Positions 4,125-23,342 of a stretch of 34,754 nt of DNA are shown one piece after another (within the stretch, counting starts at the first letter, position 1; every line of letters starts with the position of its first letter). The notes beneath the pieces were generated by a model. The model was not told where the DNA came from, ran no database searches, and saw only the letters and a program-made list of their open reading frames with translations. The stretch covers positions 1-34,754 of the forward strand of contig JAGQPS010000020.1 of NCBI GenBank assembly GCA_020426595.1. The letters run 5' to 3'. This stretch comes from Planctomycetales bacterium (GTDB lineage Bacteria; Planctomycetota; Planctomycetia; Pirellulales; Pirellulaceae). The position numbers and the translations under genes were made by a program.

Positions 4125-6743
4125 TTACGAATTGGCGGGAGCTGGCCCAAGACTCGCCGCTGGTTCAGCCGCAAGGGTTGGCCCCTCCATCGTGCCCGAC
4201 TTGAACGCTCGGCCACCCACCGCGATCGCGAGGACGGTGAGCGAACTGACCGGCATCAGCGCGGCGGCCACGAGGGGATTGATTTGCCCGGCGGCGGCCA
4301 AGATGACCGCCAAGGCGTTGTACATCAAACTCACGCCAAGGCCGAGCTGAATAGTGTGGACCGTCCGCCGAGCTCCTTGCAGCAAGCCCAACAGCGGCAG
4401 CAAACCCGACCGCCCGAAGTAGACGTCGGCCGATCGCAGACTGATCTCCGCCCCCGACTGCACCGAGATCCCCACATCGGCCGCCGCGAGCGCCGCGCTG
4501 TCGTTCATGCCGTCTCCGACCATGACACAGGGACCGGTTCCCTGGTGACGGTGGTCGTTGAGCACTTCGACCTTTTGTTCGGGAGAGAGACTTCCCAGCG
4601 CCCGCCGAGACTCGATGCCTAACTCGCGAGCGACTCCCGCGACGACTCGTGGGTGGTCACCCGACAAGACTCCGACTTGCCAGCCGAGTTGCTTGAGTCG
4701 AGCGATCACACTCGCGGTCTCGCCACGCAGCGCGTCGCCCACACTCACGCCGGCGACGACCGCTCCATCCACCGCCGCCAGAATCGGCGTGCAGCCTTGC
4801 CGAGCCACCCAGTCGCTCCACCGATCCCATCGCGGGTCGATCGATGCCTTGTCACCCACGAATCGACTCGTTCCCACGCGCACGTCGCGTCCCGCCACGA
4901 CGCCAGCGATTCCGCCGGTCTCGCCTTGTTGGACTTGTTCGACCGATAACGACGAGGCCCCGTCATGACCGGTCGTGCCGCTGGCACCTCCGAGCGACCA
5001 ACGGCTCGAATCACGCGTGATGGCTCGCGCGGCCTGATGGTTGGATAGCGACTCGAGTGCCACGACGTATTCGATCACGCTTCGATCGCCGACCCACGAG
5101 CGGACGGAAGTCCGTCCTTCGGTCAACGTTCCCGTCTTATCGAACCAGATCGTTCCGGGATGAACCAAGCGTTCGAGAGCGTCACCACCCTTTACCAGCA
5201 GCCGCTGCCGAGCGGCTCGTCCCACGGCGACGGCGATCGCCAAGGGAGTCGCCAATCCAAGAGCACAGGGACAAGCCACGATCGCCAGCGCGATCGCATG
5301 ATCCCAGGCGTGAGGATCGCGGACCCACGACCAACCAAGAGCGGTCGCCAAGGTCGCCACGACGATCACCACGACGAACCAGCCTCCGAGCGCGTCGGCT
5401 CGCTGCACCAGACGAGTCCGTTTGAGCGCGGCGTTCTCGACGAGATCGATCAGTCGCCCGAGACGCGAGACGCCACCGACCGCCGTGACCTCGAGCTCGA
5501 TCGGACTCTCGATATTGTTCATGCCGCCATGCACGGCATCGCCGGGAGCGATCTCCACCGGAGTCGACTCTCCGGTGAGCAACGATCGGTCGATCGAGGT
5601 TCTCCCCGAGACGACGATTCCATCCGCTGGAATCGTCTCGTTCCCCAGCACGCGAACACGATCACCAACGGTGAGCGCCGACGCGGGAACCCACCGCGCC
5701 TCGCCTTCGGCCGAGACGCGCCGAGCGCGGCTTGGCGTGAGTTCATAGAGCCGGCGAATGTCGTCCGAGGCGCGGCGAGTCTGGCGGTATTGGATCCAGC
5801 GCCCGACGAGCAACAGAAATACCAGCATTCCGAGCGAATCAAAGTAGATCGCGCCGGTGTCGCGAAACGTGTTGATCCAGCCAACGGTCGTCCCGAGGCC
5901 CAAGCCGAGCGCGATCGGCAGATCCATATTGGGGACACCGGCCCGTAGGCCCGCCCAGGCCTGACGAAAGAAGGTCCGCCCTGGTCCGGCCAAGGCGATG
6001 GCCCCGAGTCCCGCGCTGACCCAACGCAAGTACCGTTCGATGTTGGCGTCCATGCCGCTCACCCAACCGGCATAGAGCGCGATGGCGATCAACATCAAGT
6101 TCCCCGCGACCGCCGCCGCGATGGCGATCTCGACCAACCTTCGACGCGTTTCACGCAGCGCCGATTCCTCGGCGTCATTGCGCTGGTAGGGATAAGGGCG
6201 GTAGCCAAGTTGATCGAGTCTCCGCGCGACCTGCGAGAGTTTCGTTTGCTCGGCATCCCACGTCACGGTCAGCACGCCGCGATGCAGATTGAGTCGGGCT
6301 TCACTGACGCCCGGCATCAACCGGGGCAATCGTTCGAGCAACCACACACAAGCCCGGCAATGGATTCCATCGAGTCGCAAATCAACGCTCAGGGAGTTGG
6401 GCCCCATCGATCGCGCATGATCCGCGAGAAAGCTCGGATCATCGAACTCCTCGTAGCTCTCGCCCGAGTCGCCGGGGTGTCCCGCCGCTCCTGGTTCATG
6501 GGCCCGATATTGATAGAAGTCATCGAGGCCCGAGGCATGGAGCAGTTCGTAAGCCGCCTCGCAGCCGTTGCAGCAGAACACGACGCCGGCCGCGGCCGCT
6601 TCGGCGTTGGCTCCGCGCGCGATGAGCAGCTTGGTTTGAGCCTCTTGATAGGCCCGCGGGATCGGCAACTGGCAATGCCGACAGACTCCGCTCGGGCCGG
6701 TGGCGCAGGCTTGCCCTTGAGAATCGGCCTCGCCGGCGCTCAT
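4125..6743 (-). CDS. ccoI: Copper P1B-type ATPase CcoI (FixI)
   Basis: CcoI pumps copper across the inner membrane for assembly of the haem-copper centre of cbb3 oxidase. The 872 residues hold an N-terminal cysteine-rich metal-binding domain typical of this subfamily (FCCNGCEAAYELL, 56-68), an HMA domain with CRAC (129-132), membrane helices, the actuator motif LTGES (389-393), the transport motif CPC (491-493), the phosphorylated aspartate in DKTGT (D535) and GDGMND (743-748). The nucleotide-domain His-Pro dipeptide expected near 569 reads SNHQ (567-570), an unusual change. The start overlaps the stop of the upstream TauE/SafE-like gene by ATGA, so the two are translationally coupled, and ccoS follows after 15 bp. 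Confidence 0.93.
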   Translation of the reverse strand: MSAGEADSQGQACATGPSGVCRHCQLPIPRAYQEAQTKLLIARGANAEAAAAGVVFCCNGCEAAYELLHASGLDDFYQYRAHEPGAAGHPGDSGESYEEFDDPSFLADHARSMGPNSLSVDLRLDGIHCRACVWLLERLPRLMPGVSEARLNLHRGVLTVTWDAEQTKLSQVARRLDQLGYRPYPYQRNDAEESALRETRRRLVEIAIAAAVAGNLMLIAIALYAGWVSGMDANIERYLRWVSAGLGAIALAGPGRTFFRQAWAGLRAGVPNMDLPIALGLGLGTTVGWINTFRDTGAIYFDSLGMLVFLLLVGRWIQYRQTRRASDDIRRLYELTPSRARRVSAEGEARWVPASALTVGDRVRVLGNETIPADGIVVSGRTSIDRSLLTGESTPVEIAPGDAVHGGMNNIESPIELEVTAVGGVSRLGRLIDLVENAALKRTRLVQRADALGGWFVVVIVVATLATALGWSWVRDPHAWDHAIALAIVACPCALGLATPLAIAVAVGRAARQRLLVKGGDALERLVHPGTIWFDKTGTLTEGRTSVRSWVGDRSVIEYVVALESLSNHQAARAITRDSSRWSLGGASGTTGHDGASSLSVEQVQQGETGGIAGVVAGRDVRVGTSRFVGDKASIDPRWDRWSDWVARQGCTPILAAVDGAVVAGVSVGDALRGETASVIARLKQLGWQVGVLSGDHPRVVAGVARELGIESRRALGSLSPEQKVEVLNDHRHQGTGPCVMVGDGMNDSAALAAADVGISVQSGAEISLRSADVYFGRSGLLPLLGLLQGARRTVHTIQLGLGVSLMYNALAVILAAAGQINPLVAAALMPVSSLTVLAIAVGGRAFKSGTMEGPTLAAEPAASLGPAPANS

Positions 6744-7618
6744 GGCCCCTGGCTCCCATCAGCCTCGGCGGTCGCTGATTCCTCGGCTTCGCGGAGTGCG
6801 TTTGCGGCCGCCTCGCAGCACGGCTTCTTTTCATTCGTCAGAGTCTCGATGCCGCCGCCATCCAGAACGACGGGATGTTGGCTCAGGTTGCCGAGCCATT
6901 CCTCCCACGCCGCGCTGGCTCGGCTACGAATCGTCGTGACGCCAATCGCGATCACAAGCACGGCGGTCGCCCAAGTGGCGTGTCGGCCCCAGCGACCGGC
7001 GATCCACCGCGCGCTGATGCCGAGCGAAACCAGGACCGGGAGTGCTCCGGCCCACAACAATCCCATCACCGCAGCGCCAGCCCAGGGCGAACCGGTACCG
7101 GCGGCGACGAGCACGAATGTGTAGAGCCAGCCGCAGGGGAGCAAACCGGTCACCAATCCCAGAGTCGTCGCGCGGGCCCGAGGGCTCCAGCCCGCGCTCG
7201 CCTTGCGCACGCGCACGATGAAGTTCATGAGCCCCTTGGGAAGCGGCAAATGCCAGAATCGGCCTAGCCAATGTTTGACCAGCACCGCCACGCCAATCCC
7301 GATGCTCGTGATGCCAGCCAGCCAAGCCGCGCCAACCTGCCAACCGACCCAATCGCCTCCCAGATCCAAGGCCGCGCCGAGGGCTCCGGCCGCGAGTCCG
7401 ATCGCGAGGTAGGTCGTTAGGCGTCCCGCTTGGTAGCAAAGCGTCGTACCGGAGCTTCGACGCGGCGCGGCGCATCCGCCTTGCGAGTCACAGCCTTCGC
7501 GCGAACCACTCCGCCCCGTTCCGCCCGCCAATGCCGCGATCGGTCCGCACATGCCGGCGCAATGCAGCGAACCGACAAGGCTGGCGATGGCGACGGCGGT
7601 CCAAAAGGTGACATTCAT
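6740..7618 (-). CDS. TauE/SafE (DsbD_2-like) family membrane protein
   Basis: This 292-residue membrane protein belongs to the group annotated as sulfite exporter TauE/SafE or UreH/DsbD_2-like, which is often found inside cbb3 gene clusters. It has about six hydrophobic helices and the hallmark motif HCAGMCGP (19-26) in the first helix, whose cysteines could handle copper; the C-terminal tail has a KPCCEA segment. The name should not be taken as proof of sulfite export. Position between ccoG and ccoI, with a 21-bp gap on one side and a 4-bp overlap on the other, argues for a role in oxidase maturation, probably metal or thiol handling. A purine-rich GAGAGAG lies upstream of the ATG. Confidence 0.85.
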   Translation of the reverse strand: MNVTFWTAVAIASLVGSLHCAGMCGPIAALAGGTGRSGSREGCDSQGGCAAPRRSSGTTLCYQAGRLTTYLAIGLAAGALGAALDLGGDWVGWQVGAAWLAGITSIGIGVAVLVKHWLGRFWHLPLPKGLMNFIVRVRKASAGWSPRARATTLGLVTGLLPCGWLYTFVLVAAGTGSPWAGAAVMGLLWAGALPVLVSLGISARWIAGRWGRHATWATAVLVIAIGVTTIRSRASAAWEEWLGNLSQHPVVLDGGGIETLTNEKKPCCEAAANALREAEESATAEADGSQGP

Positions 7619-7639
7619 GAGCGAGGCTCTCTCTGGGTT

Positions 7640-9073
7640 CTAGGGACCCGCCATGCGGAAACTAATGACTCGTTCATCCCCTTGGTCGCTGCGGAAGGTC
7701 ACTTTCACGGGCAACCAATGATCCTTGAACAGGGACGCCGGTGCCACGGCTCGAAGTCCAGCGGTCACGCTTTTCTCGCCCTCGATCGGAATCTCATCGC
7801 TCGTCGTTTTCACATCGACCTCCGCCGGTTCGACGCCGACAAGCGTGAGGACCGCATCGTCCCGAGAGCGATTGACCAAGTGCATGGTGAAGGTGTTGGC
7901 GATCCGATCGCTCTCCACCTTCTGGTAAGGCAATCCTCGCTCACGATTGATCGCGACATCGAAGCTCTTGCGTCCCATCACGAGTGTCACGATTCCGGTG
8001 ACCAAGGCGAGCAAGACGATGGGATAGATCAAAATCCGTGGGCGGAACAACGAGAAACGCTGGCCCTCGTCTTCCATTTGCGAACTGTAGTGGATCAACC
8101 CCTGGGGACGACCAATCTTCTCCATCACGTCATCACAAGCGTCGATGCACTGAGCGCAGTTGATGCACTCGAGTTGCAGGCCGTCTCGTATGTCGATGCC
8201 CGTGGGACAAGTCGTCACGCATTTACGACAATCCACGCAGTCTCCGACGATGGGCAAGTCGGGAGACATCTCCTTGCGTCGCCCCTTGTGGCGAGGCTCG
8301 CCACGAGCCTTGTCATAGGACACCACGCGCGAACTTCGGTCGAGCAACACCGACTGAAATCGGCCATAGGGACAGGCGATGATGCAGAGCTGTTCGCGGA
8401 AGAAACCGAAATCGAACAACATCGCGATCGTGACGAGCGTCACGATGCCGAACGCCCATGGGTGCTCGAACGGCGTGCTCCGCCAAACCCACTTGATCAG
8501 ATTGTCCATCCCCACGAAGTACGCGAGAAAGGTGTGGGCCAGGTAGAAACTGATCACGAAGTACAGGCCGTACTTCACCACCTGCCGCCAAGGAACTGCC
8601 GCCCCCTTGGCCTTACCTCCCTTGCCCCACGTTCCGTCGGCCCATCGTTCGATCGGCCGAAACACGAATTCCATGTACACGGTTTGAGGACAAGCCCAAC
8701 CACACCAGACCCGTCCGAAGACGGCGGTGAACCAAAAGATCGAGAGAAAGACAAAGACCATGCCGAGCGCCATGATCGCGGTGTCGGTCGGCAAGATGCG
8801 CAGGCCGAACACGAAGAACTCGCGATTCATGATGTCGAGCAGCAACAGCGGGCGGCCGTCGTACTTGAGGAATGGCAGCAGCGTGAACACGAAGATCAAG
8901 AGGGCCGCCACGATGCGACGGCGGCGAAGATAGCGACCGTCGGAAACCTTGGGTTTGAGCCAGCGACGTGAACCGTCGCTCTCCATGGTGGAGAGGATCT
9001 GCCCAGGTGGCTTGAGCAGATGGGGAACCGCTTCTTGACCTTGCTCCGGTTGCTCTGACGCTGACTGAACCAT
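7640..9073 (-). CDS. ccoG: cbb3 oxidase accessory protein CcoG (ferredoxin-type)
   Basis: CcoG (FixG/RdxA) is a membrane-bound iron-sulfur protein that helps cbb3 oxidase assembly; work in other bacteria links it to cupric ion reduction. In 477 residues it shows membrane helices, the family motif CGWACPQT (124-131), CIIACPYG (230-237), and two [4Fe-4S] ligand sets: C279/C282/C285 with C289, and C303/C306/C309 with C313. A final helix (about 347-366) is followed by an Ig-like C-terminal domain. A GTG codon lies immediately upstream in frame, but the ATG at 9073 has GGAGAAGG at good spacing and is preferred. A separate transcription start upstream is possible, because 268 bases lie between ccoP and ccoG. 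Confidence 0.93.
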   Translation of the reverse strand: MVQSASEQPEQGQEAVPHLLKPPGQILSTMESDGSRRWLKPKVSDGRYLRRRRIVAALLIFVFTLLPFLKYDGRPLLLLDIMNREFFVFGLRILPTDTAIMALGMVFVFLSIFWFTAVFGRVWCGWACPQTVYMEFVFRPIERWADGTWGKGGKAKGAAVPWRQVVKYGLYFVISFYLAHTFLAYFVGMDNLIKWVWRSTPFEHPWAFGIVTLVTIAMLFDFGFFREQLCIIACPYGRFQSVLLDRSSRVVSYDKARGEPRHKGRRKEMSPDLPIVGDCVDCRKCVTTCPTGIDIRDGLQLECINCAQCIDACDDVMEKIGRPQGLIHYSSQMEDEGQRFSLFRPRILIYPIVLLALVTGIVTLVMGRKSFDVAINRERGLPYQKVESDRIANTFTMHLVNRSRDDAVLTLVGVEPAEVDVKTTSDEIPIEGEKSVTAGLRAVAPASLFKDHWLPVKVTFRSDQGDERVISFRMAGP

Positions 9074-9085
9074 CACACACCTTCT

Positions 9086-9105
9086 CCGACTGAAGCTTCA
9101 GCCGG
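9086..9105. promoter_or_regulatory. 20-bp near-perfect palindrome upstream of ccoG
   Basis: The sequence CCGACTGAAGCTTCAGCCGG is a palindrome with one mismatched pair and a perfect 12-bp core, CTGAAGCTTCAG. It lies just upstream of the ccoG ribosome-binding site. It could be an operator for a dimeric repressor or a 5'-UTR structure; no known regulator site was recognised. Confidence 0.35.
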
Positions 9106-9341
9106 AAACATGAAGTCGATGGGTTCACGACGAGCCCACCCCACAACAAACGCTCCCGACACGCAAGTCGAGGAGCACCCCTGTCGCACGTTGGTACGGC
9201 CACCAAGGGCCTCGCGACGACAGCGGTTCAAGGCGAGAAACTCCGGCTCGGGCGATTGACTCCCAACCGAGGTCGGGACGCCGTTGCCATGGAGATTCGT
9301 GCCACGTTGCGAGACATGGCACTCGGCCCCTCGAGCCCCCG

Positions 9342-10142
9342 CTATTCTCCACCGCCGCCTGGGGCGACGAGCGGAGGCTCACTGTTGGTGGTTTCCTCGG
9401 TGGAGCCCTCGGCCGCCCCGTCACCCGCGCCGGCCTCGGCGGTACCGTCACCGGCAGCGCCGTTTTCGATCGCACCTTCGTTGGACGATTCGGGCGTTTC
9501 GGAGCTTACGTCGGGGGTTGTTGTTTCGCTGGAATCCTGGCCATCTTCTGGCGATTCCTCGAGGCTGGTGGGCCACGGAGGAATCACATTGCCCTCGGCT
9601 TCCTTGGGCTGGGCCGGGCTGGTGCCACGAAGACTCGCGACGTAGCACGCGACGAGCACCACTTCATTCGGATGGAGACGCGTCCGCCAAGCGGGCATCG
9701 CCCCGTTGTTGGCCCCGTCGGCCACGACCTTGGCGAGATCCTCGATCTGCTTCACGTTCTTATAAGCGTCGTCGGTCAGGTTGGGCCCCTGCAAACCACC
9801 GCCATCGGGAGCGTGGCAGGTAATGCAGTTCGCTTGATAGACAACCTTGCCAACGTCGAGCCACTTGGTGTCCTGATAGAACTTGATCATCTCGGCCCGA
9901 GTTCCCTGCAATTCACCAATCTCGGAGAATTGCTGGCGAAGATTCGCGGCGTTGGCCCGTTCGTATTGATCGATGACGCCGCGTCCGGATACGCCGGAGT
10001 GGAAGTAAATGAAATAGAACAGGCTATGGACCGCGGTCGCGAAGAACAGCCAGTTCCACCAACCTGGAGTCGGGTTGTCGTACTCTTGAATCCCGTCATA
10101 GACGTGACCCGACAACTCATGGTTATCCGATGTTTCTGACAC
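9342..10142 (-). CDS. ccoP: cbb3 oxidase subunit CcoP, monohaem form
   Basis: CcoP is a membrane-anchored cytochrome c subunit that feeds electrons to the cbb3 catalytic core. The 266 residues start with a FixP N-terminal region (YDGIQEYDNPTPGWW, 15-29), one membrane helix (about 30-50), then a single cytochrome c domain with CITCH (106-110) and MPAW (149-152, axial Met149). Classical CcoP has two haem domains; only one is present here. From about residue 180 the protein is a long tail rich in Glu, Ser, Thr, Ala and Gly with no fold I recognise. The start is GTG, fixed by a perfect AAGGAG nine bases upstream. It follows ccoQ by 89 bp. Confidence 0.9.
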   Translation of the reverse strand: MSETSDNHELSGHVYDGIQEYDNPTPGWWNWLFFATAVHSLFYFIYFHSGVSGRGVIDQYERANAANLRQQFSEIGELQGTRAEMIKFYQDTKWLDVGKVVYQANCITCHAPDGGGLQGPNLTDDAYKNVKQIEDLAKVVADGANNGAMPAWRTRLHPNEVVLVACYVASLRGTSPAQPKEAEGNVIPPWPTSLEESPEDGQDSSETTTPDVSSETPESSNEGAIENGAAGDGTAEAGAGDGAAEGSTEETTNSEPPLVAPGGGGE

Positions 10143-10231
10143 GATCCGCTGCTCCTTGATTATCGCTGTTCAAATGCGATGCATTCGCGAGGCGTGTGCG
10201 ATCACCCGCCCGGCCGTTACCGATGTGGCGT

Positions 10232-10387
10232 CTAGTCCTCGAGGGGAAGCCGAGAAACCACACTCACTTCCTTGCGCCGCTGGAGCAACGCCTGAGTCGT
10301 CGCGATGGCGAAGGCCGCGAGGAACAGCACCAGGCCGCCCTCCGCCCAGAACTGATAGTCCATGTGCTTGAGTACTTCTTTGATCAT
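10232..10387 (-). CDS. ccoQ: cbb3 oxidase subunit CcoQ-like small protein
   Basis: The 51-residue product has one membrane helix and ends RRKEVSVVSRLPLED. A basic stretch directly after the helix and an acidic RLPLED-type ending are typical of CcoQ, the small subunit that stabilises cbb3 oxidase. Position between ccoNO and ccoP agrees with this. Three starts are possible: TTG at 10417, ATG at 10387 and ATG at 10363. I chose 10387 because AAAGG lies eight bases upstream; the 10363 ATG would give the conventional MDYQFW start and a 43-residue protein but has a poorer ribosome-binding site. Confidence 0.8.
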   Translation of the reverse strand: MIKEVLKHMDYQFWAEGGLVLFLAAFAIATTQALLQRRKEVSVVSRLPLED

Positions 10388-10523
10388 CCGAATGGCCTTT
10401 ATGGTTGCCGCGCCCAAGGCGCTCGAGATTTCTGGTTGAGTGGGATGGGAATGAAGTCAAGCGTTTCACGAGCTGGGCCCGTGGTCTCGCCAGGCATATT
10501 CCATGGAGCCGAACCGCGGACGA

Positions 10524-10565
10524 GATCGGAGGAGTCGATGATGCTCACTTTCGACTCCTCCGATC
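10524..10565 (-). terminator. Perfect 15-bp stem hairpin between ccoNO and ccoQ
   Basis: GATCGGAGGAGTCGA (10524-10538) is exactly complementary to TCGACTCCTCCGATC (10551-10565), with a 12-base loop. It starts 13 bases after the ccoNO stop codon. No T-run follows on the minus strand, so a pure intrinsic terminator is unlikely; a partial terminator or an mRNA-end stabiliser that sets the ccoNO to ccoQP ratio fits better. Confidence 0.55.
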
Positions 10566-10578
10566 CCAGTTCCGAGGG

Positions 10579-13017
10579 CTAGCGAGGCGTCGCGAGCGTT
10601 TCCTCATCACTACTTGAGCGATCGGTCGTCGCGCCGCTGGCCGTGGATTCCGTTCCTGCCCCATCGGGAGTCTCGTTCGACTCCGTCGCCGCCGTGCTTT
10701 CAGCTTCCGGCTCCGTTTCCGAGGTGGGTTCCTCGGCTTCCGCGGCCGGTTCTTCGGTGTTGTAGATATCGGTGCCCAGACGCTGGAGATAAGCGATCAA
10801 GGCGACCACCTTCTTGTCATGCAATCCCTCGGGACCGTCTTGTCGAGCGATTTCCTCCGCGATCTCTCGCGCTTGTCGCTCGGCATCGGCGGCCGGGTTG
10901 TTCATGATCTCGTCCGAGTACTCGGCGCCAAGGAACGACGCCGCGCGAACGCGTGGTTGCACGTCGGCGAAGTTGATCGTCTCTTGCTCGAGCCATGCAT
11001 AGGCCGGCATGATCGACCCTTCCACTTGGCTCGCGGGATCACGGAAGTGAGTCACGTGCCAGAGGTGCGATTGGCGACCTCCGACTCGAGCCAAGTCGGG
11101 ACCGATGCGCCGTGAGCCCCATTGGAATGGCCGGTCATACACGAACTCCCCGGCTCGCGAGTAATCACCGAATCGCTTCTTGTCCGCCAACAATGGACGA
11201 ATCATCTGCGAGTGGCAGTTGTAACAACCTTCCGCCACGTAGATGTCGCGACCATAGAGCTCAAGCGGCGTGTACGGCTTGACCGAGGCGATCGTTGGTA
11301 CGTTGCTGCGGATCAGGAACGTTGGCACCATTTCAAAGGCACTGGCCAGCAAGACACTCGCCGTGACCCACAGGGTGAGCCGGACCGGGAGACGTTCGAG
11401 GCGACGGTGCCAGAACGCCTTGCTCCACACATCGACCTTCTTGCCGATCTCGAGCACGCCATCGAGTTGCGACTTGGGAGGCACCGGATCGTGGAATCCG
11501 CCTCGCAGCGGAGCCGCGCGATGGACCGGCACTTCGTAAACCGCGGGACGAGCCGCCCAGGTCATGATGAGGTTGACCATCATCATCACCACGCCCCCCA
11601 CATACAGCAGTCCGGCACAGATACGGATGATGTAGGGAATCTGCAGAACGCGAGTCGTTTCAATCCAGTTCGGATACTCAAGAGCACCGTTCTCGGGATT
11701 GATCGCCGACCACATCAGGCCTTGCGTGATGCCGGCCCAGTAAATCGGGATGATGTAGAGCAGGATCGCGAGCGTGCCAGTCCAGAAGTGAGTCGAAGCC
11801 CAGCTCTTGCTCCACAGTGGCGTCTGGAAGACTCGAGGAGCCAACCAGTAGAGCATGCCGAACGCCATGAAGCCGTTCCAACCGAGTGCGCCCGAGTGCA
11901 CGTGGGCGATCGTCCAGTCGGTAAAGTGGCTGAGCTTGTTGACGCTCTTGATGGACAACAACGGACCTTCGAACGTCGACATGCCGTAGAAGGTAATACC
12001 GACGACGAAGAACTTCAGAATCGGATCGTCCGCCACCTTCTTCCAGGCGCCTCGCAACGTCAACAGACCGTTGATCATGCCGCCCCATGAAGGCATCCAC
12101 AGCATGACCGAGAAGATCATGCCGAGCGTCGACATCCAGTCGGGCACCGCCGAGTAATGCAAGTGGTGCGGACCGGCCCAGATGTAGATAAACACAAGCG
12201 ACCAGAAGTGAATGATGCTCAAGCGGTACGAGAAGACCGGTCGATCCGCCGCCTTCGGCAGGAAGTAATACATCAATCCAAGGAAGGGCGTGGTGAGGAA
12301 GAACGCCACCGCGTTGTGGCCGTACCACCACTGCATGAAGGCGTCTTGCACACCCGCGTAGATCGGATAGCTGGTGAGGATGCCCGTCGGCACGACCAAG
12401 TTATTGAAGACGTGCAGGACCGCCACGGTCACGATCGTCGCGATGTAGAACCAGAGAGCCACATACAAGTGACGCTCGCGACGATGGAGCAACGTCATCA
12501 GGAAGTTGCCGCCGAAGATCACCAACCATACGACCGCGATCAGCAAGTCGACGGGCCACGGCAACTCGGCATACTCCTTACCCTGGCTGAAGCCCAACGG
12601 AATCGTCAGAGCCGCCAGGACGATGATCAGCTGCCAACCCCAGAAATGCAGACGGCTCAGCAAGTCGCTGTACATGCGACACTTGCAGAGCCGTTGGGTG
12701 GAGTAGTAGACGGCCGCGAAGATCGCGTTGCCGGCGAACGCGAAGATCGCCGCGTTCGTATGCAACGGCCGCAGGCGACCGAACGTGAGGAAGTCGAGCC
12801 CGAAGCTGGCCTGGGGGACGACCAACATCAGGGCGACGTAGACTCCCGCCAAGGTTCCCACCAGAGCCCACAACACCGTTGCCGCCACAAACAGCCGGAC
12901 GATGCCATCGTCGTAGGTGAACTCTTCAAGATTCCCATCCTTGCCGACTCCCGCCGGATTGGCGATGTCGAGCTTGGAAGCGTCATCGCTTCCGGCCAAC
13001 GCTTCGGTCTGACTCAT
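10579..13017 (-). CDS. ccoNO: cbb3-type cytochrome oxidase, fused CcoN-CcoO
   Basis: This is the catalytic subunit of a cbb3 oxidase, joined to the monohaem electron-transfer subunit CcoO in one 812-residue chain. The CcoN part (about 40-500) has twelve or so helices and the metal ligands: H86 in RPLHTNAA, YGHNAV (232-237; H234), GPHHLHYS (282-289; H284/H285), and AHVHSGALGWN (371-381; H372/H374). The CcoO part (about 540-755) has an anchor helix, CYNCH (598-602) and M670 in MPAY. A tail of about 58 residues rich in Glu, Ser and Thr follows. The frame runs further upstream, but the start at 13017 (MSQTEALAG) is chosen because everything before it lacks family similarity. It leads the cco locus; a GCAGGCGGA segment upstream is a weak ribosome-binding site. 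Confidence 0.95.
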   Translation of the reverse strand: MSQTEALAGSDDASKLDIANPAGVGKDGNLEEFTYDDGIVRLFVAATVLWALVGTLAGVYVALMLVVPQASFGLDFLTFGRLRPLHTNAAIFAFAGNAIFAAVYYSTQRLCKCRMYSDLLSRLHFWGWQLIIVLAALTIPLGFSQGKEYAELPWPVDLLIAVVWLVIFGGNFLMTLLHRRERHLYVALWFYIATIVTVAVLHVFNNLVVPTGILTSYPIYAGVQDAFMQWWYGHNAVAFFLTTPFLGLMYYFLPKAADRPVFSYRLSIIHFWSLVFIYIWAGPHHLHYSAVPDWMSTLGMIFSVMLWMPSWGGMINGLLTLRGAWKKVADDPILKFFVVGITFYGMSTFEGPLLSIKSVNKLSHFTDWTIAHVHSGALGWNGFMAFGMLYWLAPRVFQTPLWSKSWASTHFWTGTLAILLYIIPIYWAGITQGLMWSAINPENGALEYPNWIETTRVLQIPYIIRICAGLLYVGGVVMMMVNLIMTWAARPAVYEVPVHRAAPLRGGFHDPVPPKSQLDGVLEIGKKVDVWSKAFWHRRLERLPVRLTLWVTASVLLASAFEMVPTFLIRSNVPTIASVKPYTPLELYGRDIYVAEGCYNCHSQMIRPLLADKKRFGDYSRAGEFVYDRPFQWGSRRIGPDLARVGGRQSHLWHVTHFRDPASQVEGSIMPAYAWLEQETINFADVQPRVRAASFLGAEYSDEIMNNPAADAERQAREIAEEIARQDGPEGLHDKKVVALIAYLQRLGTDIYNTEEPAAEAEEPTSETEPEAESTAATESNETPDGAGTESTASGATTDRSSSDEETLATPR

Positions 13018-13579
13018 GCTGTGGGTCGTCCGCCTGCAACGGTCACTGAACCTGCGATCCGCCAACATCGGCTCGATCGCGCACTGAATGCAACGCGTCG
13101 CACTGACGCAACCACTGTGCCAGTGCAAACTGCGCCGATTCGTCGCACCCCGATCCAAAGGGTTCCCGCATCGCTTCAAGCCGGCCCAAGTGTCGAGAAG
13201 CTCGCCTACTTGCGGCTCAAGGTAGCGCCAAGCTCCCCTCACGCTTGGTCCGCACATTCCGGCACACCGACCCGTCATCAGCGCGCCGCTAGCTGTGCGG
13301 CGCGCTTTTCCAGCGTGCACGTGTGCGGCCATGCACACTTGTCGGTCGACTGTGAGGAGCCAGCGGGTCGAGGCGGTAGGCAACTCCTCGCGTCCGTCGC
13401 GATGGTCATTGCTCGAGCGAAAGATTGCGAACCCCTAGAAGCCTCCGCTAGGCTGATCTCGGTTACCAACGATCGAGCTGATCCATTCCTCCCGGTCCGC
13501 GGACCGACGATCACCCAGCCTCGGTCCGCGCGCCTTCCCACTGACGCTTTCCGCCACATCTTGCCAGGAGACCCGCACG
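13018..13579. other. Divergent promoter region, ccoNO and oxidoreductase
   Basis: These 562 bases separate two diverging genes and must hold both promoters. I looked for an FNR-type box (TTGAT-N4-ATCAA), common before cbb3 genes, and found none. A strong hairpin at 13281-13305 is listed separately; another short inverted repeat, GTGTGC/GCACAC, lies near 13320-13338. No gene is supported here. Confidence 0.5.
13281..13309 (+). terminator. Intrinsic-terminator-like hairpin with no upstream gene
   Basis: GCGCGCCGC (13281-13289) pairs perfectly with GCGGCGCGC (13297-13305) around a 7-base loop, followed on the plus strand by TTTT. The form is that of an intrinsic terminator reading plus, yet the nearest plus-strand gene starts 270 bases downstream. 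It could end a small RNA or a leader transcript. Confidence 0.5.
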
Positions 13580-16332: not shown

Positions 16333-16480
16333 GAAAGCCTCGCCACGACCCTCGAGAGGGGAGCCATTTCATTTTTTCACGTTCACGTAAGCGCCGCCTC
16401 GGGAGTGTCGTCCAAACGGTGTTGAAGCCAATGAGCATGGTTGACTCAGGCTCGACAGACGCTCAACGAGGAGAGATTCC

Positions 16481-16807
16481 ATGAAAGCGGCGACCGTGAA
16501 CGATACCCAATTTCGTCAAGAAGTCCTGGAATCCGATCAAGTCGTATTGATCGACTTCTGGGCTCCTTGGTGTGGCCCGTGTCGAGCCATGTCGCCGGTT
16601 GTGGATCAGCTGGCGGGTGACTTGGCCGGAGTCGCCAAAGTCGTCAAGGTCAACGTCGATGAATCGCCGGTGACCGCACAGCAATTCGGAATTCGAGCCA
16701 TCCCTTCGTTCTTCGTCATGAAGCAGGGTCAAGTCGTTGAATCGCTCGCCGGCACTCAGTCCGCCGGGAGGTTGACGAATGCCGTGCAACATGCGATCAA
16801 CGCATAA
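16481..16807 (+). CDS. trxA: Thioredoxin
   Basis: A 108-residue cytoplasmic thioredoxin that reduces protein disulfides. The active site is WAPWCGPC (27-34, C31 and C34), the buried Asp is in LIDFWA (D25), and the cis-proline is P76 in RAIPSFF. Length and fold pattern are standard, with no signal peptide. AGGAGAG lies just upstream of the ATG. The gene stands 93 bp ahead of an ECF sigma factor on the same strand, with a terminator-like hairpin between them. In actinobacteria a thioredoxin system is the target of SigR-RsrA, so this neighbourhood may mean regulation by the adjacent sigma factor. Confidence 0.95.
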   Translation: MKAATVNDTQFRQEVLESDQVVLIDFWAPWCGPCRAMSPVVDQLAGDLAGVAKVVKVNVDESPVTAQQFGIRAIPSFFVMKQGQVVESLAGTQSAGRLTNAVQHAINA

Positions 16808-16848
16808 CTGGCTCGAACGAAGCGTGGCTGCGACGATTGAGTCATACG

Positions 16849-16877
16849 GCCGCCGCGCGACAAGGCCGCGGCGGCTT
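16849..16877 (+). terminator. Hairpin after thioredoxin gene
   Basis: GCCGCCGCG (16849-16857) pairs with CGCGGCGGC (16867-16875), with a 9-base loop, followed by TT and a short ACTTTC. It follows the thioredoxin stop by 41 bases and probably ends or weakens that transcript before the sigma factor gene. Confidence 0.5.
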
Positions 16878-16900
16878 GGGACTTTCGCTCGGAGACACGG

Positions 16901-17593
16901 ATGAGCGATCTTGAATCCAACGAACTGGTTCCCACGACTGGGACCACGGAGCCGTCGGGCGATGCGGCCCGCATCGCCGAAATGGCGGACGAGTCGGCGC
17001 GCAAATGGGTCCAGCGGCTTTACGGCGGCCGGAATGAGCGGGCCAAGGCTCTGGAGGAACTGCGTTCGATCTTGCTGCGCGGATTGCGAGCCGCGTTCGC
17101 CGGCGACAATGTGTCGGACGACCTGTTCGAGGATGCCGTGCAGGATTCGCTCATGAAGATCCTCCGCAACCTCGACTCGTTCGAGGGGCGGAGTCGATTC
17201 GAGAGCTGGGCGACTTCGATCGCGCTGCGCACCTTGCTATCCGAACTCCGACACCGGCGTTACCAAGACATTCCGCTCGCGAGCCTCAGTGATCCCAACC
17301 GAGGCGTATCCAGCGCTCAGCCCGATCGGAGCGAAACGTCACCCGACGTACAAATGATGAAGCAACAAGTCGTCGCGGTGATGCATCGTCTCATCGACGA
17401 ACATCTTTCCGAGCACCAACGATCGGCTCTGCGAGGCGTGCTGGCTGGCATCCCGAGTGATGTCCTGGCCAATCGACTGCACTTGCAACGCAACGCACTT
17501 TACAAATTGCTGCACGATGCTCGGCAAAAACTCAAACAAGGGTTGGCCCAAGAAGGCTACGAAGGCGCCGACCTGCTCTCTCTCTTTGAATAA
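16901..17593 (+). CDS. ECF-type RNA polymerase sigma factor
   Basis: This 230-residue protein is a group 4 (ECF) sigma factor. Region 2 (about 60-125) includes FEDAVQDSLMKILRNL (75-90) and RFESWATSIALRTLLS, the core-binding and -10 segment. After a linker, region 4 (about 165-215) forms the helix-turn-helix (VLANRLHLQRNALYKLLHDA). The N-terminus is about 55 residues longer than the minimum. GGAGA lies close to the ATG. A small zinc-finger protein gene follows after 15 bp and is its likely anti-sigma factor; a thioredoxin gene lies before it. Target promoters and inducing signal are unknown. Confidence 0.88.
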   Translation: MSDLESNELVPTTGTTEPSGDAARIAEMADESARKWVQRLYGGRNERAKALEELRSILLRGLRAAFAGDNVSDDLFEDAVQDSLMKILRNLDSFEGRSRFESWATSIALRTLLSELRHRRYQDIPLASLSDPNRGVSSAQPDRSETSPDVQMMKQQVVAVMHRLIDEHLSEHQRSALRGVLAGIPSDVLANRLHLQRNALYKLLHDARQKLKQGLAQEGYEGADLLSLFE

Positions 17594-17608
17594 TTCGGAG
17601 TCGCGAAC

Positions 17609-17851
17609 ATGAGTGAACCTTGGCGAGATCTCGTTCGACTCGTCGCGCAAACTCGCGACGACGAAGGCGCGGGGTGCGAGTGTTGTCATGAGAACCTAGC
17701 GGAATTCGCCGAGCGCGAACTCCAAGGACTCAGTCGCTGCGAAACGCTCATGCGCATCGCGGCGCACTTGCAAGACTGCCCTTGCTGCCAGGACGAATAC
17801 CAACGCCTCACCACCGCGCTCAAGGCGGTCTGGTGCCCACCCGGGTCGTGA
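17609..17851 (+). CDS. Small soluble zinc-binding (ZAS-type) anti-sigma candidate
   Basis: An 80-residue protein without any membrane segment. It has the ZAS signature H53-x3-C57-x2-C60 (HLQDCPCC), which in anti-sigma factors binds zinc and grips the sigma factor. A second cluster, CECCH (23-27), and two more cysteines (C44, C76) make it very cysteine-rich. Soluble ZAS proteins of this size, such as RsrA of Streptomyces, sense disulfide stress by losing zinc. With the ECF gene 15 bp upstream and thioredoxin before that, a thiol-redox anti-sigma role is a reasonable inference but not shown. Confidence 0.75.
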   Translation: MSEPWRDLVRLVAQTRDDEGAGCECCHENLAEFAERELQGLSRCETLMRIAAHLQDCPCCQDEYQRLTTALKAVWCPPGS

Positions 17852-20272: not shown

Positions 20273-22786
20273 TTAGGTCCTCAGCCGCAACGCGTTGCCA
20301 ATCACGCTCACGCTGCTGAAGCTCATGGCCGCGGCGGCGACCATGGGACTCAATGTCCAACCGAGCCAGGGATACAGCACGCCAGCGGCGATCGGAATGC
20401 CGATCGCGTTGTAGGCGAAGGCGAAGAAGAGATTCTGCCGAATGTTGGTCATCACGCGACGCGACAACCGAATGGCCTCCGCCAAGGCACGAGGGTCTCC
20501 GGCGACGAGTGACACGTCGGCGGTTTCGATCGCGACGTCGGTCCCGGTCCCCATCGCGATGCCAACATCCGCGGCCGCGAGACTCGGGGCGTCATTGATG
20601 CCGTCGCCGACCATCGCCACGACTTGGCCCGTTTGCTGCAACGATCGAATCAGCCGTTGCTTGTCCTCGGGCAGGGCGTCGGGCAATACTTGCTCGATGC
20701 CGACTTGAGCCGCGACGCTCCGCGCGACCGCCGCGCGATCACCGCTGGCGAGATGCACGGTGCAGCCCAGTTCGCGCAGCGAGCGAACCGCTTCCACCGC
20801 GTTCGGCTTGATGGCATCGGCCAGGACGATCGCTCCGATCACGTTCGTGTCCCTCGCCACCCAAACCACGGTCCCGGTAACGGAATCGACGCGCTTTCGC
20901 AAACCCTCGGGAATCCGTCCACCCACTTCTTCCAACCACGGGGCGCGCCCCAATCGCCAAACGTGGCCGTCGATCCGCCCCCGCACGCCGGATCCCGCTT
21001 GAATGCTGATCTCCGCCGCCGTGGGCAATGACAATTCGCGCCGCTGGGCTTCGAGAACGATCGCGGCCGCGAGTGGGTGTTCGCTCCCTCGCTCCACCGC
21101 CGCCGCCGAGGCCAACACGCGAGCCTCATCAAAACCCTCGGCCGAATCCTCGGCTAGTTCAATCCGATCGACTCGCGCCTTCCCCTCGGTCAACGTGCCG
21201 GTCTTGTCGAACACGATCGTCCGCACTTGGGCCAGTCGCTGCAGCGCCGCGCCTTGCTTGATCAGAATCCCGCCTCGAGCGGCTCGTCCCACACCGACCA
21301 TGATCGATACGGGAGTCGCCAAGCCCAGCGCGCAGGGACAGGCGATCAACAGCACCGAGATGGCGGCGAGCGCGGCACTGGAAAGTCGCTCGTCGGCCGG
21401 CCCCCAAATCCACCAGGCGAGCGCGGCGGCGAGCGCGCAAACGATCACGATCGGAACAAACACGCTCGCGACTTGATCGGCGAGTTTCTGAATCGGAGCT
21501 CGCGTGCGCTGCGCTTCGGTGACCGCGTGAATGATCCGAGCCAACAACGAATCACGAGTCGTCGCGCGGACTTCAATGAGCAGCGCGCCTTCACCGTTGA
21601 TCGTGCCTCCGACGACATCGTCTCCCGACTCGCGCGCCACCGGCAAGGACTCGCCCGTCACCATCGCTTCGTCCAGGTGCGACGCGCCTTCCAGGACGTG
21701 ACCATCGATCGGCACGCGCTCGCCCGGCTTCACCCGCACACGATCGCCAACCTTTAGTTGCTCGATCGGTACCGATTGTTCTTGGCCCTCGGTCAGTAGA
21801 GTCGCGTGCGTCGGATTGAGCGCGAGGAGTTGGCCGAGCGCCGACTGTACCTTGAGTCGAGCCCCGATCTCGAGCCACTGACCGAGCAGGACGAGCGTGA
21901 TGATCACCGCGGCGGATTCAAAGTACCAACCGCCGTGATCTTGATTGGCCCAAGTCGGCAATAGTCCCGGTGTGATCAACGCGACCAAACTCAGTCCCAA
22001 GGCCGCCCAAGTTCCCAGCGCGATGAGCGTGAACATGTTGGGCGAGCGATGGATCACGCTATTGACCGCTCGAGTCCACAGAGGCCATGCGGACCAGGTG
22101 ACGACCGGCAAAGCCAAGGCGAACTGCAGCCAACCGGCGACTTGATGAGAGACACCTGGGAGCCTCAACCCGATCATCGGTCCCATGGCGATGAGGAACA
22201 ATGGAGTCGTCAATGTGGCCGCGACGACCAGCCGCCGGGAAATGTCGGCTCGCCCCATATCGTCGGCCGTGGCCGTGGGACGTGTCGGTTCGAGGTCCAT
22301 GCCACAGATCGGACAGGCTCCGGGTTCCGCGCGTCTCACCTCCGGATGCATGGGGCAGACATATTCCACGTCGCGCCGGGCCGCGGGGTTGGCCTGCAAG
22401 GGCATCCCACAGTGCGGACAGTCACCCGGCGAATCGGACTCGACCGTTGGACAACAAGGACAGAAGTAAGCGGATTGGACGACACGATTCGCCTTGCTCC
22501 CCGCGCTGCTGGCGCCCCCACAGCAACTCGGCGGTTCACTCGCCGGGGCCGCACAACAACCTCCGACCGAGTCTTCACCGTCCGAAACTGGCGGGCCCAT
22601 TTGTATTTGGAAAACGCCGGCATTGGCCGGTTGAGGCGCGCGGTCAGGGACCGAAAGTCCGTGCCGCCGTGCGTATTGGCTCTGGCACCCCGCCGAACAG
22701 AAGTAGACCGGTTCCCCATCATGCTCGAGGGAGAATCGTGCGGTGCCGGGGTCAACCTGCATGCCGCATATGGGGTCGATGGCCAT
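20273..22786 (-). CDS. Copper-type P1B ATPase with YHS and two HMBD modules
   Basis: A heavy-metal efflux ATPase, probably exporting Cu(I) or Ag(I), 837 residues. The N-terminus has a YHS domain (MAIDPICGMQVDP, then YFCSAGC at 28-34), a CC..CC spacer (C77/C78 and C88/C89), and two heavy-metal-binding modules: YFCPCCPTV (107-115) with CPHCGMPL, and the canonical YVCPMHPEV (142-150) with CPICGMDLEP. The ATPase core shows VTGES (376-380), CPC (483-485), DKTGT (D527), SEHP (568-571) and GDGIND (727-732). The frame also has a GTG start at 22837, but the ATG at 22786 begins the YHS domain directly. No clear ribosome-binding site is seen. No copper-responsive regulator gene is adjacent. Confidence 0.93.
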   Translation of the reverse strand: MAIDPICGMQVDPGTARFSLEHDGEPVYFCSAGCQSQYARRHGLSVPDRAPQPANAGVFQIQMGPPVSDGEDSVGGCCAAPASEPPSCCGGASSAGSKANRVVQSAYFCPCCPTVESDSPGDCPHCGMPLQANPAARRDVEYVCPMHPEVRRAEPGACPICGMDLEPTRPTATADDMGRADISRRLVVAATLTTPLFLIAMGPMIGLRLPGVSHQVAGWLQFALALPVVTWSAWPLWTRAVNSVIHRSPNMFTLIALGTWAALGLSLVALITPGLLPTWANQDHGGWYFESAAVIITLVLLGQWLEIGARLKVQSALGQLLALNPTHATLLTEGQEQSVPIEQLKVGDRVRVKPGERVPIDGHVLEGASHLDEAMVTGESLPVARESGDDVVGGTINGEGALLIEVRATTRDSLLARIIHAVTEAQRTRAPIQKLADQVASVFVPIVIVCALAAALAWWIWGPADERLSSAALAAISVLLIACPCALGLATPVSIMVGVGRAARGGILIKQGAALQRLAQVRTIVFDKTGTLTEGKARVDRIELAEDSAEGFDEARVLASAAAVERGSEHPLAAAIVLEAQRRELSLPTAAEISIQAGSGVRGRIDGHVWRLGRAPWLEEVGGRIPEGLRKRVDSVTGTVVWVARDTNVIGAIVLADAIKPNAVEAVRSLRELGCTVHLASGDRAAVARSVAAQVGIEQVLPDALPEDKQRLIRSLQQTGQVVAMVGDGINDAPSLAAADVGIAMGTGTDVAIETADVSLVAGDPRALAEAIRLSRRVMTNIRQNLFFAFAYNAIGIPIAAGVLYPWLGWTLSPMVAAAAMSFSSVSVIGNALRLRT

Positions 22787-23342
22787 GGTGAATCCAAACG
22801 ATTGTCGTGTCGACGCGCGGCGCCACTCCCGGGGCACGGTCCATGGCCCCGTTTGGTCCGCCGTTCTTCGACGTAGATTGGGTCGTCGTTTCTTACGCGA
22901 GAGCTCAACGCTCTAGCGGAAAACGGAAGGCGAGCGATCTGGATCGGCATTCGCGATGCCTGTCCGCTCGATTCAGTCGCGAGGGAACGGGCGAACTCGT
23001 GATTTCCAACGGGTTTGCATCGCGGCCAGTCCCGGTTAAGCCCGACACCTTTTTTCTAGAGACTGTCCCGGCGGAAGTCGATGGTTTCTCTCACGCCATT
23101 CCATTCGTGAGTCGACCCAGGAAGTCGAAACGCTCGATCGCCGTGAGCGAGACGAAAGGCGGGGCGAATCGCGGCCGGATGAGCGACGAGTCCTCTTTCC
23201 TTCGCGGCCTCGTTCGACCACGATGTGGAGTCATGGGCGTTTCGGCCCACCGTTTGCGGACTCGTTGGTGCCCTCGGCGTGGGTGCGAGGCTTGCCCCGC
23301 GATCGAAACAGCCTCCGTGCTGGTTCGGTAAAGGGTGTTAGG
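22787..23342. other. Intergenic region upstream of the copper ATPase
   Basis: About 550 bases lie between the copper ATPase start (minus) and the first tiny plus-strand gene. A 174-codon plus-strand frame crosses it, but its codon choice and overlap with the ATPase 5' end argue against a gene. The ATPase promoter must be here; no known metal-regulator operator was recognised. Confidence 0.45.

Follow-up and report, generated by a model that had tools for sequence, protein, structure and literature searches.

A thioredoxin, ECF sigma factor and soluble zinc-site protein in a planctomycete: a predicted counterpart of the SigR-RsrA oxidant alarm

Does a planctomycete possess a thiol-oxidant alarm of the kind that SigR and RsrA form in actinobacteria? 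The question is raised by three adjacent genes, encoding a thioredoxin, an extracytoplasmic function (ECF) sigma factor and a cysteine-rich protein of 80 residues, in 34,754 nucleotides of a Planctomycetales bacterium (assembly GCA_020426595.1, contig JAGQPS010000020.1; the whole stretch analyzed is called the window). Few planctomycete ECF sigma factors have, to our knowledge, a known signal or target. Planctomycetes carry many of them, with 37 genes in Rhodopirellula baltica (PMC2754498; here and below, citations rest on excerpts of the papers named). In the present case the sequence by itself is enough to name a sigma factor, its probable inhibitor, its promoter and several of its targets, and the system is therefore testable at once. 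We give about two chances in three to the reading that the three genes form one operon acting as a thiol-oxidant alarm, in which oxidation would free the sigma factor to raise thioredoxin.

All three genes lie on the plus strand, in the order and at the places given by a preliminary description of this DNA. The thioredoxin gene (trx; 16481 to 16807) encodes 108 residues with a WCGPC site, scores 109.9 bits against TIGR01068 (cut-off 96.8) and is a second trx of the genome. It is followed after 93 bp by the sigma factor gene (16901 to 17593; 230 residues), identified by PF04542, by TIGR02937 (60.1 bits, cut-off 42.9) and by the family alignments, and then after 15 bp by the gene of the 80-residue protein (17609 to 17851), which family, ligand, hydropathy and profile comparisons suggest to be a soluble, putative anti-sigma factor with a zinc site of the CHCC type. 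The features that the preliminary description had listed for this protein were all found: the 15 bp gap, the motifs CECCH and HLQDCPCC with two further cysteines (C23, C25, C26, C44, C57, C59, C60 and C76 in all), and the lack of a membrane helix, the highest Kyte-Doolittle mean over 19 residues being 0.16. No Pfam model matched it above cut-off.

The pairing of the sigma factor with the small protein extends well beyond this genome. The 80-residue protein as query matched 7 of 40 relatives, its own genome included (E up to 0.01), and a seven-row alignment found matches in 34 of the 396 genomes searched in the order (E up to 1e-8) and in 103 of the 392 searched in the phylum (E up to 1e-3), the weak matches at phylum level covering mostly the zinc part only, within longer frames. 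Members were collected from Planctomycetota, Verrucomicrobiota, Balneolota, Chloroflexota and Bipolaricaulota, the named loci extending the family to Verrucomicrobia, Balneolales, Chloroflexi and Acetothermia. At a threshold of E 1e-10, and after removal of six identical duplicate loci, the set comprises 78 members including the window; locus L127 (E 8e-6) fell short and was dropped before counting. An ECF sigma gene lies directly upstream on the same strand in 77 of the 78, at a median gap of 10 bp, and this is an independent result, since members were gathered by similarity of the small protein alone. Counts over 76 members leave out L128, a membrane outgroup, and L071, which is truncated. 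The proteins are 69 to 89 residues long, and none of the 76 has a membrane span (top 19-residue hydropathy 1.27, against 3.07 in L128). Within the window sigma factor, the recognition helix (residues 193 to 212) has a median identity of 60% to the family, compared with 37% overall. Two tandem pairs with divergent sigma factors occur on one Candidatus Acetothermia contig (L069), and L081 likewise holds two pairs. On three contigs labeled Proteobacteria UBA2383 (L052), Acidobacteriia (L059) and Phycisphaeraceae (L051), the sigma genes are nested among those of other Planctomycetota or Verrucomicrobiota; these contigs are possibly mis-binned or transferred.

The residues conserved in the family are those expected of a redox-sensing zinc-binding anti-sigma (ZAS) protein. 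Cys23 (codon at 17675 to 17677, plus strand), the HxxxCxxC motif formed by His53, Cys57 and Cys60 (17765 to 17788, plus strand) and Glu63 are invariant in all 76 members, so that each has HxxxCxxC with an upstream Cys or His ligand, as ZAS proteins do; the position right after an ECF sigma gene, found in 77 of the 78, is a further ZAS feature. Cys26 is a cysteine in 63 members and Cys59 in 27; Cys25, Cys44 and Cys76 are local extras. In RsrA, zinc is held by Cys11, His37, Cys41 and Cys44, and a disulfide involving Cys11 frees SigR; ZAS proteins dissociate upon oxidation by virtue of a CHCC set with an N-terminal cysteine (PMC4960319). Profile alignment of the family with RsrA (hhalign) places C23, H53, C57 and C60 on C11, H37, position 41 and C44, that is, all four in register, so the CHCC set with its N-terminal cysteine is present at the sequence level.

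A probable promoter motif links the pair to trx. De novo search of 31 regions upstream of ahpD-type genes in pair loci, with the window excluded, yielded the dyad GTAAG-N17-C[AG]TC. At spacing 17 it occurs in 24 of these 31 regions, in 11 of 76 regions upstream of sigma genes, and before the window trx, while other spacings (8 to 29) give 0 to 3 hits each in the same regions. The preference for 17 holds in 632 kb of neighborhoods (98 sites, compared with 2 to 14 at spacings 10 to 16 and 18 to 24), for same-strand sites within 1,500 bp upstream of sigma genes (36 of 76, compared with 0 to 3 at spacings 12 to 16 and 18 to 22), and in the count of loci that hold at least one site (51 of 73, compared with 2 to 12 at other spacings). 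An approximate control gave the dyad in 0 of 20 ahpD homologues of genomes without the pair and in 2 of 10 from genomes with it; in 8 of its 30 ahpD rows the search for CxYC failed, so that a default flank set the start, and one row (L249) was read at its neighbor's position.

In the window, the site GTAAGCGCCGCCTCGGGAGTGTCGTCCAA (16387 to 16415) lies 94 bp before the trx ATG. It comprises a predicted -35 element, GTAAG (16387 to 16391, plus strand), matching exactly the motif found elsewhere, and, 17 nt past it, a predicted -10 element, CGTCCAA (16409 to 16415, plus strand). It scores 17.1 on a matrix of 35 sites from which the window was left out (tenth percentile of the training sites 17.0, median 26.9), ranks fifth among 45 loose sites of its own genome, and is one of only two strict matches in the 5.96 Mb assembly; site densities in that genome put the chance of meeting one within 250 bp at about 0.001 for the loose pattern and about 4e-5 for the strict one. 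The preliminary description had proposed comparing the trx promoter with those of other regulon members; the window trx has the dyad that precedes ahpD and trx genes near such pairs elsewhere. No motif site was seen in the 250 bp upstream of the window sigma gene, and no sigma-70-type promoter or terminator between 16250 and 18100; trx, sigma gene and inhibitor gene are therefore most simply one operon. With the pairing seen in 77 of 78 members and a common motif 5' of the window trx, the three-gene arrangement goes beyond chance. As the motif precedes the window trx as well as other trx and antioxidant genes, the window sigma factor is likely to control thioredoxin along with the rest of its own operon.

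Three further sites were considered in this genome. A second strict site in the window (9481 to 9509, minus strand) is probably a chance match, lying inside a cytochrome c (CcoP-like) frame at 9342 to 10142. Another, GTAAG-N17-CGTC, 171 bp before the better-scoring trx of the genome on contig C266, was rejected as weak, its score of 11.3 falling below all 35 training sites (minimum 14.9); that gene (L154), the main trx of the genome, has by reading a sigma-70-like promoter, TTGACA and TAGAAT 18 nt apart, downstream of the weak site. On contig C437 (L217, reverse strand), an MBL-fold/rhodanese-like gene is followed by a rhodanese-like gene with a site 86 bp before it that scores 17.3 (domain names by reading); this is a possible second operon of the regulon.

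Which genes does the motif precede in other lineages? The commoner partner of the pair is an ahpD-type peroxidase gene. Thioredoxin is rare beside it, in five loci including the window among the 78 members (a sixth trx-like match, L063, a 281-residue frame at E 2e-7, is left out of this count); all five have the motif directly before trx, with N17 in L085, L059 and L061 and N16 in L094. The view of the preliminary description that thioredoxin is part of the module is supported by the motif here and in other lineages, although adjacency to trx is not a general rule of the family. The motif also precedes AhpC-TSA-like, YHS, cytochrome P460, SPW and DUF488 genes. Moreover, it precedes MsrP-type genes in L093, L097 and L100 (MsrP match 450 bits, cut-off 207), genes of small methionine-rich lipoproteins in L101 and L103, and a DUF417/RclC-like gene in L048 and L114. 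These last three classes bear on a refinement of the thiol-oxidant reading, in which the natural oxidant would be hypochlorous acid (HOCl) or its kin and periplasmic methionine repair and scavenging would be among the main outputs in some relatives; an ECF16 system drives a methionine-rich peptide and MsrPQ under HOCl (PMC8315932). The RclC-like match, however, scores 92 bits where the cut-off is 275, and the MXKDX match 17.7 where it is 41, no such genes were seen beside the window genes, and ahpD and trx fit peroxide or disulfide stress too, so that we hold this refinement to be possible and, on the whole, rather doubtful. MsrP, an MsrQ-like ferredoxin-reductase fusion and methionine-rich lipoproteins of the MKDDKMM type lie near the pair in L093, L097, L100, L101 and L103, which belong to the window's family, several with the motif; this neighborhood is a possible hypochlorite regulon.

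In a rival reading, the pair is real and so is its promoter, but the zinc is purely structural, as it is in RsiW, and another signal, proteolysis or a partner protein, frees the sigma factor instead of cysteine oxidation. Structural zinc has been argued for many groups (PMC7406223). However, the cases named as not sensing disulfide stress are HHCC proteins that lack the N-terminal cysteine (PMC4960319), whereas the present family is soluble and invariantly CHCC, and the genes preceded by the motif serve largely in thiol or oxidant repair; we regard structural zinc as unlikely. Still less probable is a metal alarm, in which the cysteine-rich protein would free the sigma factor upon binding copper, cadmium or excess zinc. 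The eight cysteines would suit it, as would two minus-strand stretches of the window whose genes were identified by reading: a cbb3-type oxidase cluster (4125 to 13383), with a fused CcoN-CcoO-like frame, CcoP-like and CcoG-like genes and a metal P-type ATPase gene, and a second P-type ATPase gene with an N-terminal YHS-like stretch (20273 to 22837). The only other motif site of the window, however, lies in the cytochrome c frame and not before an ATPase gene, and the annotated genes that the motif precedes in other loci have redox roles and are not metal pumps. That trx stands beside the pair by an accident of gene order and outside sigma control, as its rarity there might suggest, is very improbable given the motif before all five trx genes and the chance expectation for the window site.

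Under the thiol-oxidant reading, the circuit would run as follows. From the CHCC set and the nature of the targets we infer the sensing chemistry: in the reduced cell, the 80-residue protein would hold one zinc through Cys23, His53, Cys57 and Cys60, and in this form bind the ECF sigma factor and keep it off RNA polymerase. An oxidant would produce a disulfide between Cys23 and either Cys57 or Cys60, with loss of zinc and release of the sigma factor, which would then read GTAAG-N17-C[AG]TC promoters, that of trx included. The output would be more thioredoxin, sigma factor and inhibitor, and thioredoxin would re-reduce the inhibitor and so close the loop. The starting points of this scheme, namely the genes, the conserved ligands, the sigma pairing and the motif common to trx and antioxidant genes in many lineages, were established by computation.

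Several results weigh against the favored reading. Within 1,500 bp upstream on the same strand, 40 of the 76 sigma genes have no spacing-17 site. The loose dyad is not enriched in the window's own genome (45 matches, compared with 50 for the reversed control), nor is the strict dyad in 12 genomes with the pair (39 compared with 37) or in 12 others (29 compared with 30); the Verrucomicrobia-type set alone showed an excess (20 compared with 4 reversed-control matches in 7 genomes). Since no genome-wide excess appears in Planctomycetota, either few genes make up the regulon or the pattern is not strict enough. The window sigma factor sits on a long branch, without close relatives, and is absent from the one other genome of its genus, which is 80% complete. 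As to RsrA, the hhalign match is weak (probability 8%, E 0.0042), the 80-residue protein scores 11.3 bits against TIGR03988, the RsrA model (cut-off 62.5), and Foldseek and VIA-align searches with models of modest confidence of the window protein and its relative L055 matched no anti-sigma domain, nor gave any other informative match. The claim of a SigR-RsrA-like zinc protein stands for the full ligand set of redox-sensing ZAS proteins and falls for identity with RsrA.

Is the likeness to RsrA then shared or separately evolved, as the preliminary description had asked? With an E limit of 1, zf-HC2 matched 20 of 25 members (lowest E 9e-5), the window protein not among them, and for that protein the general anti-sigma model of NCBIfam gave 13.4 bits (cut-off 100). 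A PDB profile search listed RsiW, DdvA, ChrR, RsrA and the mycobacterial membrane protein 3hug among 13 matches, each weak (E 0.2 to 0.8; 0.23 to 0.76 for the five named, with 5wuq at 0.23 and 2q1z at 0.30). To judge from these sequences, the family is probably part of the broad zf-HC2/ZAS superfamily. Its layout is another matter. In anti-sigma domains of class I, a bundle of three helices is followed by helix 4, which contacts region 2 of the sigma factor (PMC7406223), an arrangement, found in RsrA, that the family does not show. A median of 18 residues (range 12 to 25) follows the last zinc cysteine, so few that there is no room for a C-terminal fourth helix. AlphaFold2 models of the window protein and of L055 (predicted local distance difference test, 66.9 and 78.1) have four helices each, the first preceding the first ligand (residues 3 to 15 and 5 to 20, respectively), and this N-terminal helix may stand in for helix 4. 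In our reading the protein would work like RsrA but, with no room for helix 4 and an extra N-terminal helix, is no RsrA ortholog. The question is thus answered in part: the superfamily is probably shared, whereas helix layout and promoter motif differ.

Among the open-licence papers that our searches listed, we recognized none describing this small-protein family; key ECF classification papers lie outside that coverage, and a group number may exist. If the redox step is true, control of a sigma factor by a thiol switch is far from confined to actinobacteria and may have evolved in a second protein architecture as well. We advance tentatively, as a proposal with less than even odds, that soluble redox anti-sigma factors of this family, spread over five phyla or more, have the sigma-2-binding helix before the zinc bundle, its own GTAAG-N17-CRTC code and a small oxidant or reactive-chlorine regulon (AhpD-like peroxidase, thioredoxin, MsrP, RclC-like protein, methionine-rich lipoproteins), independent of actinobacterial SigR-RsrA.

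How does the system compare with those already known? Like SigR-RsrA of Streptomyces, which we take to be group ECF12, it has a soluble anti-sigma-like protein after the ECF gene, with CHCC ligands and Cys23 in the place of Cys11. The SigR promoter is GGAAT/GTT, unlike the GTAAG-N17-CRTC of the present system, and no SigR/SigH-specific NCBIfam model is among the best 25 of 56 matches. In RsrA, 61 residues follow the last zinc cysteine and 10 precede the first, unlike the family, with medians of 18 and 24 and an extra N-terminal helix. SigR-RsrA has a thioredoxin target and an autoregulated operon (PMC5472188, PMC4960319), and the promoter motif predicts both here. With the class I domains of RsiW and ChrR the family shares, through weak profile matches, a ZAS-type HxxxCxxC site, but those proteins have HHCC ligands (PMC4960319) and helix 4 after the bundle (PMC7406223). 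In ECF41, too, the ECF gene adjoins a CMD/AhpD gene, its target, with a conserved promoter (PMC3426412); ECF41 factors have a large C-terminal extension and no anti-sigma gene, whereas the window sigma factor extends little past region 4, and the zinc-site gene comes next. The BcrS-AbcS system of Brucella, of the ECF16/NrsF type, is likewise an ECF pair, with a methionine-rich peptide and MsrPQ expressed under HOCl (PMC8315932), but its anti-sigma factor is a six-helix membrane protein (DUF1109), unlike the soluble zinc-site protein described here. Set beside these systems, the sigma factor and its 80-residue partner look like a separate counterpart of the actinobacterial SigR-RsrA oxidant alarm, a variant of the ZAS redox anti-sigma kind.
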